DNA of 64,000 nt from Armatimonadota bacterium. Lineage in GTDB: Bacteria; Armatimonadota; Fimbriimonadia; Fimbriimonadales; Fimbriimonadaceae. Of the stretch, positions 14,293-16,766 are shown in pieces; the stretch's first letter is position 1, and each line of letters begins with the position of its first letter. Where the stretch lies: contig JAFDWQ010000010.1 of NCBI GenBank assembly GCA_018268395.1, positions 1 to 64,000 on the forward strand, read 5' to 3'. The position numbers and the translations under genes are program-made. The notes below the pieces were generated by a model. The model had not been told where the DNA came from. It made no database searches and saw only the letters and a list, made by a program, of their open reading frames with translations.

Positions 14293-14356
14293 CCGACGTC
14301 ACCGTCGGTCGGTTGTATACCCTTGGGCCGCCTTCCGACGCCGGGGGAAGGTGAGT

Positions 14357-15340
14357 ATGCTCAGGGTCATGAGGGTCGGAATCGTCGGTTGCGGCGGAAT
14401 GGGAGGCGTCCATGCGAACAAGTACGCCCAGATGCACGGGGTCGAGGTCGCCGTTTTCGACACCGACTCCGAAAAGCTGGCCGCCTTCGTCGCTTCGCGG
14501 GGCCTCCGCGCGGCCGACTCGTTCGAGGCCCTTCTTCGAGATTCCGACGCCATGGACGTCTGCCTTCCGACGCCCGTCCATGCCGACGTGGCCGTCGCGT
14601 GCCTGTCCGCGAGCAAGCCGACGCTCGTCGAAAAGCCGTTCGCGCGGACGGTCGCGGAATGCGAGCGCATGATCACGGCCGCTCGGGACAGTGGGGCCCT
14701 CCTGGTGCCGGCCCACGTCGCCCGGTTCTTTCCGGAGCACCGGACGGCCCATGAGGCTATCGCCCGCGGCGATATCGGCGTTCCGGCCTCCGTCCGCATG
14801 CGCCGTGGGGGCGGACCGCCTAAGGCGGACTGGTTCCTGGACGCCGACGCGTCAGGAGGCATCTTGCTCGATCTTGCCGTCCACGAGTTCGATTGGTTGC
14901 TGTGGACGCTCGGCCCCGCCGAAACGGTCACGTCTCGCTCCGTCCGGCTCGGAAAAACCGTCGAAGGGGCCGAATTCCGCGGAGACTACGCCCTCTCCAC
15001 CGTTACTTTCAAGAACGGCTGTGTCGCCCATGTCGAATCGACCTGGATGGATCCCAGCGGGTTCAGGGTGACGATCGAAGCCTGTGGCCCCAAAGGCGTC
15101 GTCGAATTCGACTCCAGGGACAACCCGTCGCTGCGCACGCACACGGGCACGACCGTGAACGAGAACAACTACGCCCCCGAAGACGACCCTTACTTCCGGC
15201 AGTTGACGGCCTTCCTCGAAGCCGCCTCCGGCCAAGCGGCTCCGTCCGTCAAGGCCGAAGAAGGAACCGAAGCGGTGCGGCTCGCGACGGCCGCGATCCA
15301 AAGCGCAAAGACCGGCGAGCCGGTCCGCGTGAGCGGTTGA
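14357..15340 (+). CDS. Gfo/Idh/MocA family NAD(P)-dependent oxidoreductase
   Basis: About 327 residues. The N-terminal Rossmann motif VGIVGCGGMGGVHA is followed by the family's PTPVHADV and the EKPFARTVAEC segment with the conserved EKP lysine. The C-terminal alpha/beta domain includes GGGPPKADWFLDADASGGILLDLAVHEFDWL with the usual conserved D..H. The predicted role is reversible oxidation of a sugar or inositol hydroxyl in the cytoplasm. The ATG at 14357 follows a purine-rich GGGGGAAGG; ATG 14369, just before MRVGIVGCGG, is an equally good start. Substrate unknown; the DUF1080 and isomerase genes nearby suggest keto-sugar metabolism. Confidence 0.9.
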   Translation: MLRVMRVGIVGCGGMGGVHANKYAQMHGVEVAVFDTDSEKLAAFVASRGLRAADSFEALLRDSDAMDVCLPTPVHADVAVACLSASKPTLVEKPFARTVAECERMITAARDSGALLVPAHVARFFPEHRTAHEAIARGDIGVPASVRMRRGGGPPKADWFLDADASGGILLDLAVHEFDWLLWTLGPAETVTSRSVRLGKTVEGAEFRGDYALSTVTFKNGCVAHVESTWMDPSGFRVTIEACGPKGVVEFDSRDNPSLRTHTGTTVNENNYAPEDDPYFRQLTAFLEAASGQAAPSVKAEEGTEAVRLATAAIQSAKTGEPVRVSG

Positions 15341-15366: not shown

Positions 15367-15513
15367 TTAGCGCTTCTTCTTGACGGGTTTCTTTGCCGCC
15401 TTCTTCACGGACTTCTTGGCCGCCGTTTTCTTCGACTTGGCGAGTGGCTTGGCCGTCTTTTTCGTCAGGACCGTCGTCTTACCGGCCGACCCGTTCGAGG
15501 CGGCCGCCTTTAG
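15367..15513 (-). CDS. lysine-rich C-terminal extension in the -1 frame
   Basis: A 48-residue continuation that would be added to the 15510-16766 product if ribosomes slip -1 at its last two codons. It is strongly histone-H1-like: KKTAKPLAKSKKTAAKKSV then more KKAAKKP-type repeats, about 40% lysine. There is no ATG or GTG in this frame near its beginning; only a TTG at 15573 inside the upstream gene could start it independently. The lysine-rich bias is real protein character and not a shadow. A homopolymer sequencing error in CCCCC is the main alternative; then the tail would always be part of the protein. Confidence 0.55.
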   Translation of the reverse strand, partial: LKAAASNGSAGKTTVLTKKTAKPLAKSKKTAAKKSVKKAAKKPVKKKR

Positions 15514-15519
15514 AAAGGG
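15483..15519 (-). promoter_or_regulatory. candidate -1 programmed frameshift signal
   Basis: The zero-frame codons CCT TTC TAA are preceded by C, giving the X XXY YYZ heptamer C CCT TTC at 15519-15513, directly before the stop. After a 6-nt spacer (TAAAGG) comes CGGCCG (15506-15501), a 12-nt loop and CGGCCG (15488-15483), which form a 6-bp stem. AGGCGGCCGCCT, overlapping this, is itself palindromic. Slippage would re-read CCC TTT CTA AAG and enter the lysine-rich frame. Confidence 0.5.
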
Positions 15520-16766
15520 GGCAGTTTCGACCCTAGGCTCGCGAACAGTTCGGCGAGACCGTTCTCGTACCAACTCTTGTCCTTTCGCGGCGCGGGCTTA
15601 TAGACCGGCCCTTGGTAGACCTTCATGACCGACTCGGGCAACGGGAACGACTTCGAGATCTCCCCGTACGCCTTGGCGATGTCCGCGTCGCCCAGGAAGC
15701 TCCACCAACCGATAAGGAACGTGCCCGACAACTCGTACGGGCCGTAGCCCTTGTCCGGCCCGACGTCGCTCGCGCTGCCATAGCGGTAGACGCCGTTCAT
15801 GCCGTTCATGAAGTTCGTCAAACGGTATCCCGGGAATCCGCTGTCCGGCTTTCGTAGGACGACCTTGTTCATCTGTTTCGCAAGGCCTGACCGGATCTTG
15901 TCGTAGAACTTGTAGTCGTCCGAATCCGGCGGATACGCGTTCCGGAGGGAGACGACGAAGAGGGCGAACCGATGAAAGTGCGACGTGTCCATCGTGATGT
16001 CGTTCACTTTCATGGGGATCATCCCGGGGGTGATCTGAGGGTTGCCCGCGAAGACGAGGTCGGGATGGTCCGTCCACATGCCGACGTCGAACAGCCACCC
16101 GCCGTCCCGGGTAAAGGTGCCCCGGTCTTCGAAGACCCGCCGCGCCGTGGACAGGACGTCCTTGATCGTGGACTCGTGGGGCAGGGGCGTCTTCGTCGCT
16201 TTCGAGTAGGTGACGAGGTCCGCGGCTTCGGCGAAGACGAAAGCCTCTTCGTCCGTGATCGCGGCGTAATACGACTTCGCCGGGTTGAAGAGGGCGAGCT
16301 TGTGGACCACGCGCTCTCGGACGCCGTGAAAATGGGCGATGTCGAAGCCGATCGCGTCCTGGCTCTCCCAACGGTCGGCGATTTCGTCGGCCGTGTAACG
16401 GAACAGCCGCTCGTTGACCTCGGATTTCCGGCCGGACTTGGCGCTCAGGGCCAAGAACCGTGTCGCCGTGTACAGATATTGCATCCGCGACAGCGGGTTC
16501 TTGCAGAGGTCGGTCCGCGGAACGTTGACGAGTCGGGAGTAATGGGCGTCGAACTGGGATTGCCAGTCCTTTTGGTCGAGCAGGAACGCGGCATGAAGGG
16601 GCACCATGTAGAAGTGCCCGTGCAAGTACGCGAGGTCGTCGTTCCACGAGTTCCTCGTCAGGTAGAGACCGATGTTCTTCTTGAACAGGTCGTTCTCGTG
16701 CTCCGTCACTTCGGGCGGAGTTCCGAAGGGAAGGGCCAACGCTAAGGCGACCGCCGCGATCTGCAT
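15510..16766 (-). CDS. exported protein of unknown function, possibly frameshift-extended
   Basis: 418 residues in the zero frame. The start at 16766 is set by a signal peptide (MQIAAVALALALPFG) and an AATACT box 6 nt upstream; a longer frame to 17006 is arginine-rich nonsense. The body is helical-looking and rich in aromatic residues, with LAYLHGHFYMVPLHAAFL, DVGMWTDHPDLVFAGNPQ and DTSHFHRFALFVVSL, reminiscent of alpha/alpha-toroid glycan-active proteins, but no family is recognised. The frame ends ...KLPPF-stop exactly on a slippery heptamer. It converges with the Gfo/Idh gene. Confidence 0.75.
   Translation of the reverse strand: MQIAAVALALALPFGTPPEVTEHENDLFKKNIGLYLTRNSWNDDLAYLHGHFYMVPLHAAFLLDQKDWQSQFDAHYSRLVNVPRTDLCKNPLSRMQYLYTATRFLALSAKSGRKSEVNERLFRYTADEIADRWESQDAIGFDIAHFHGVRERVVHKLALFNPAKSYYAAITDEEAFVFAEAADLVTYSKATKTPLPHESTIKDVLSTARRVFEDRGTFTRDGGWLFDVGMWTDHPDLVFAGNPQITPGMIPMKVNDITMDTSHFHRFALFVVSLRNAYPPDSDDYKFYDKIRSGLAKQMNKVVLRKPDSGFPGYRLTNFMNGMNGVYRYGSASDVGPDKGYGPYELSGTFLIGWWSFLGDADIAKAYGEISKSFPLPESVMKVYQGPVYKPAPRKDKSWYENGLAELFASLGSKLPPF

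Follow-up and report, generated by a model that had tools for sequence, protein, structure and literature searches.

Does a chromosomal gene of the Fimbriimonadaceae give rise to two proteins, one of them extended by a lysine-rich tail, through a programmed −1 ribosomal frameshift placed directly before its stop codon? The question is raised by a locus in the window, a stretch of 64,000 nucleotides from an Armatimonadota bacterium (assembly GCA_018268395.1, contig JAFDWQ010000010.1, positions 1 to 64,000; genome G000), and was approached by comparison with related genomes, above all the MAG SZAS-3 (G003, contig JAFDWS010000004.1), which represents another species of the same genus.

Slippery site and tail in two species

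The gene lies on the minus strand at positions 16766-15510, with a frame-0 coding sequence of 418 codons that ends in AAA CTG CCC CCT TTC TAA (...KLPPF in the protein). The sequence-only reading had described a C CCT TTC heptamer before the stop and, behind it, a 48-residue lysine-rich tail in the −1 frame, and both are present as described. CCCTTTC occupies positions 15519-15513 in the phase X XXY YYZ and adjoins the frame-0 stop TAA (15512-15510), and after a −1 slip the codons would run CCC TTT CTA AAG and onward for 48 codons past TTT (LKAAASNGSAGKTTVLTKKTAKPLAKSKKTAAKKSVKKAAKKPVKKKR; 15513-15367 on the minus strand, including TAA at 15369-15367), 19 of which, or 40%, specify lysine. The last stop of the −1 frame lies before the heptamer and the frame-0 stop directly after it, the −1 frame being open upstream for 26 codons here and for 38 in G003.

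The homologue in SZAS-3 is the nearest, with 70% protein identity, and ends ATG CCC CCT TTC TGA AGG CGC, its −1 frame reading PFLKAPPSKAVSTKAKAKQPVKKTLAKKRKKRR over 31 lysine-rich codons before a stop. The identical heptamer, the adjacent stop and the lysine-rich −1 tail are shared between the two species, whereas the stop codon (TAA and TGA, respectively), the tail length and many of the tail residues differ; both tails are intact, start with LKA and finish with a stretch of basic residues. Divergence between the orthologues amounts to an NG86 dN of 0.24 and dS of 1.34, with 74 of 133 four-fold sites differing (distance ~1.0). The expectation that heptamer and tail would be conserved in a homologue holds in SZAS-3, the one other species with the tail, and this supports the reading of a programmed −1 frameshift; an in-frame tail without the heptamer, named beforehand as speaking against that reading, occurs in none of the other homologues.

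Homologues were found in nine of the 85 genomes of the family by a profile scan of contigs, and among nine relatives only SZAS-3 carries the tail. A protein-only scan of the genome contigs returned no homologue, and a class-wide search (113 genomes) added no genome in which a homologue reached E ≤ 1e-30. The homologue in G001 (same genus, 62% identity) ends KMPDL, that in G027 (50%) ends KVPASKQ, and that in G013 (57%) has another in-frame ending, KMPSIQDDGKQREVSLSKRAK. Since none of these three has the heptamer or an out-of-frame lysine-rich tail, the sequences indicate that the tail is gained in, or retained only by, one lineage. Nucleotide conservation at the junction is not unusual within the gene, several other stretches being equally conserved, and the case therefore rests on heptamer and tail jointly. 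In both G003 and G001 the homologue is directly followed by the same gene for a small exported protein; the window differs, and a convergent Gfo/Idh/MocA-like oxidoreductase gene, named by the appearance of its sequence, lies 3' of the gene at 14351-15340 on the plus strand.

The 3' ends of stop-to-stop frames of at least 100 aa were surveyed in both other frames over 453 kb of G000 (2,213 frames) and 645 kb of G003 (2,227 frames), and −1 extensions of at least 25 aa with at least 20% lysine were found only in the window gene and its G003 orthologue. The earlier contention that such a tail behind the stop is hard to explain by chance is well founded in this respect, the orthologous pair being the sole instance of such −1 tails at ~4,400 open-frame ends. 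The only other match of the survey, a +1 lysine-rich extension in L083, was rejected as a spurious ORF. Third-position GC of the two tails is 0.82 and 0.76, against 0.43–0.49 at the other positions, and this codon-like periodicity is seen in the −1 frame only. Because of this rarity, the third-position GC of the −1 frame and the neutral-drift result given below, it is very probable that both species translate the tail and retain it at the protein level. No second copy was recovered when the tail alone was used as a query against both genomes.

In the same stretches of the two genomes, homopolymeric heptamers of the form XXX(AAA/TTT)N stand directly before the stop in one of 277 genes in G000 and two of 384 in G003, and these three genes are the orthologous pair and one ordinary gene overlap. 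The latter, GGGAAAT at L059 (G003:C5:320001-340000), was rejected as a frameshift site, being an overlap with an ATG just past the first stop; on the minus strand of this locus, at ~8063, two ORFs overlap at GGGAAATTGACAATG, for which translational coupling is likelier than frameshifting. The pattern CCCTTTCTRA occurs at a total of seven sites in G000, compared with six for the reversed control pattern, and neither the other sites in G000 nor the CCCTTTCTRAAGG sites in 60 relatives combine a position at the end of a gene with a comparable lysine-rich tail. The sites from the CCCTTTCTRAAGG search in G025 are a repeat, and those at L101 and L103 belong to a single sequence whose long ORF lies in the −1 frame and not in frame 0. 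A repeated element with CCCTTTCTGAAGGGAGAGGGGCTGG was also observed in G025 (L094, L095), in several copies on short contigs.

Decoding and possible stimulators

Genes for both tRNA-Pro(GGG) and tRNA-Phe(GAA) were found in G000, and in a −1 slip these would re-pair from CCU to CCC and from UUC to UUU, respectively, with every pair kept or wobble. CCT is retained at the slippery site in both species, although it makes up just 17% and 22% of their proline codons. The heptamer C_CC.U_UU.C has been named as a high-level −1 frameshifting site in Escherichia coli, and the H_HH.U_UU.Y class, which includes it, is among the most efficient in that organism (PMC4066793). As regards tRNA genes more generally, 106 matches were counted in the SZAS-3 genome and 46 in the genome of the window, and a dense tRNA gene cluster at ~387–520 kb (and ~95 kb) of one large SZAS-3 contig (G003:C5) looks like a tRNA array carried by a mobile or phage-like element.

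RNA structure 5–9 nt downstream of the slippery site is common, but not obligatory, in −1 programmed ribosomal frameshifting, and an upstream Shine-Dalgarno-like stimulator, as in dnaX, is optional. The CGGCCG...CGGCCG stem that the sequence-only reading placed 6 nt past the heptamer does exist (15506-15483 on the minus strand, with arms at 15506-15501 and 15488-15483), but this candidate stimulatory hairpin is no stronger than composition predicts, its folding energy relative to shuffled sequences giving z values of −0.06 and 0.07 in the window and 0.20 and −0.34 in G003. Because its energy equals that of the shuffles, the 'textbook' stem is weaker evidence than it had been taken for, and it was discarded as an independent argument for frameshifting. 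Hairpins are possible 4–6 nt downstream of the heptamer in both species, and when gene ends of the same genomes are ranked by hairpin strength at that spacing, these two fall within the top 7.6% in G000 and 12.8% in G003. A Shine-Dalgarno-like AGGG is present 11 nt upstream of the heptamer in the window and is not conserved in G003.

Alternative explanations

The tail might be a relic, in that an ancestral in-frame tail was put out of frame by a one-base deletion and now drifts untranslated behind a coincidental heptamer, a history that would fit both the dispensability of the tail, since relatives do without it, and its unequal length of 48 and 31 codons. When either tail was simulated under neutral drift at 0.5–1.0 substitution per site (20,000 runs, with no indels and no selection on composition), however, an open tail with at least 30% lysine was left in 0–0.01% of simulations, and up to 1.2% survived under the looser threshold of at least 38% lysine plus arginine; true survival would be lower still, because indels were left out of the model. 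Both tails have moreover stayed intact and lysine-rich, with the LKA start and the basic end, at ~1 synonymous substitution per site, and such a relic is considered improbable. A sequencing or assembly error is a different matter, as the true run would then be C6 and the tail simply in frame in both species, and long-read assemblies can lose a base in runs of the C5 type. Against this, the five-C run is identical in two independent assemblies, and the ratio of C/G runs of six to runs of five (0.138 in G000, 0.143 in G003 and 0.149 in the fragmented G001) gives no hint that homopolymers are compressed. In cross-species tblastn, no frameshift junction appeared between G000 and G003 over 9,729 aligned residues (~29 kb of coding sequence), with none between G000 and G001 or between G003 and G001, and an error of this kind at the junction is highly improbable. 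The few junctions seen against G013 fall in a single region and look like gene boundaries.

A C5 run that became C6, through slippage of RNA polymerase or through phase variation, would also yield the same fused protein, and the five-C run is indeed conserved. Known polymerase slippage sites, however, are A or T runs of ~8 or more (PMC3711429). C/G runs of five are common here, at ~600–1,000 per Mb, so most of them cannot be slippery, and neither process would need CCCTTTC to be kept in this phase right next to the stop, which makes this route to the fusion very unlikely. That the tail instead belongs to a separate small protein, made from an internal start or by re-initiation at the stop, is hardly credible: upstream, the −1 frame stays open over 26 codons in G000 and 38 in G003 and has a TTG at codon −18 in the window, but this TTG is CTG in G003, no ATG, GTG or TTG in the −1 frame is common to both species, and the codon overlapping the stop is CTA in one and CTG in the other.

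Programmed −1 frameshifting at C CCT TTC therefore appears to be the best explanation (probability about 0.82), because heptamer and tail are conserved together and are rare, simulated neutral drift hardly ever leaves such a tail, no error, in-frame tail, shared start codon or long slippage run was found that could account for it, the tRNAs can re-pair and the heptamer is efficient in E. coli. What counts against it is that its support is drawn from the sequences of two species, of which G003 at least is a MAG, that the hairpin is unexceptional and the upstream AGGG absent from G003, that the junction is no better conserved than other parts of the gene, and that G001 and the more distant homologues have no tail.

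Proposed mechanism and relation to known systems

The 418-residue core begins with a probable signal peptide, MQIAAVALALALPFGT (16766-16719 on the minus strand), and a hydrophobic N-terminus is found in the homologues too, which suggests that the protein is exported. No Pfam or NCBIfam match to the core rose above the cut-off, and sequence profiles did not place it among GH76/GH105-like glycosidases. Its AlphaFold2 model, for which 10 homologues served as input, is an alpha-helical toroid (pLDDT 81.7, pTM 0.86). A Foldseek search with this model gave nothing at E ≤ 0.001, and structural realignment gave GH76, GH105, GH88 and cellobiose 2-epimerase at Z 14–17 over ~290 residues with ~10% identity, the top match being 9r4p_A (Z 17.1, rmsd 4.4, 292 residues). 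By prediction the core is exported and folds as an (alpha/alpha)6-toroid that resembles glycosidases and epimerases by fold only, outside any sequence family; the fold is in common with the GH76, GH105 and cellobiose 2-epimerase toroids, whereas the low sequence identity to these and the lack of a Pfam or NCBIfam family make the likeness one of fold alone. The tail would raise the calculated pI from ~6.6 to ~9.5 in the window protein, and from 5.9 to 8.9 in that of G003.

Under programmed frameshifting, the majority of ribosomes would terminate at TAA and release the 418-aa core of pI ~6.6. At C CCU UUC, where the P site holds tRNA-Pro and the A site tRNA-Phe, a fraction of ribosomes would move back by one nucleotide; the two tRNAs would pair anew with CCC UUU, and translation would continue for 48 codons to give a form of 466 aa that has a polycationic tail and a pI of ~9.5. 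A single gene would then supply two forms of an exported protein, with and without the tail, in a ratio set by the rate of the slip. That ribosomes slip here, how often they do so, that the protein is exported and what the tail does are all things that we infer. The likeliest role is electrostatic anchoring, by which a fraction of the enzyme-like core would be held on anionic polymers of the envelope, on exopolysaccharide or on extracellular DNA.

Gene 10 of phage T7 encodes a capsid protein; its slippery site is of the G_GU type, and its extension is not rich in lysine. It is like the present gene in that a −1 slip near its 3' end yields a minor form with a C-terminal extension (10A/10B; PMC5009743), whereas here the gene is chromosomal, the protein exported and enzyme-like by prediction, and C_CCU_UUC stands directly before the stop. 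In dnaX and chlD, a conserved −1 slippery site likewise gives two products from a non-mobile bacterial gene (PMC5009743, PMC3711429, PMC9227772), but there the slip changes domain content or enzyme subunits, while here only a short polycationic tail would be added. An archaeal alpha-L-fucosidase shares with this locus −1 frameshifting in the gene of a carbohydrate-active enzyme (here so by fold), although there the slip is reported to be required for a fully functional enzyme (PMC8037382), and here the core is complete without it. A literature search for lysine-rich programmed-frameshift tails returned nothing relevant, and the available parts of a review and a survey of bacterial frameshifting describe no case in which an exported protein gains a lysine-rich tail (PMC5009743, PMC3711429). 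Within the literature searched, the class of mechanism is a known one; this gene and this type of tail seem to be new.

Conserved −1 frameshifts are few among ordinary bacterial chromosomal genes. It is put forward tentatively, and at somewhat less than even odds, that in this chromosomal, non-mobile gene a terminal −1 frameshift dispenses a polycationic anchor, by which a fixed fraction of the enzyme would stay on the surface, the matrix or DNA while the rest diffuses. If true, one gene would have a cheap means of fixing the proportion of free and anchored enzyme, and such isoforms would be hidden by standard gene calling, which ends at TAA.
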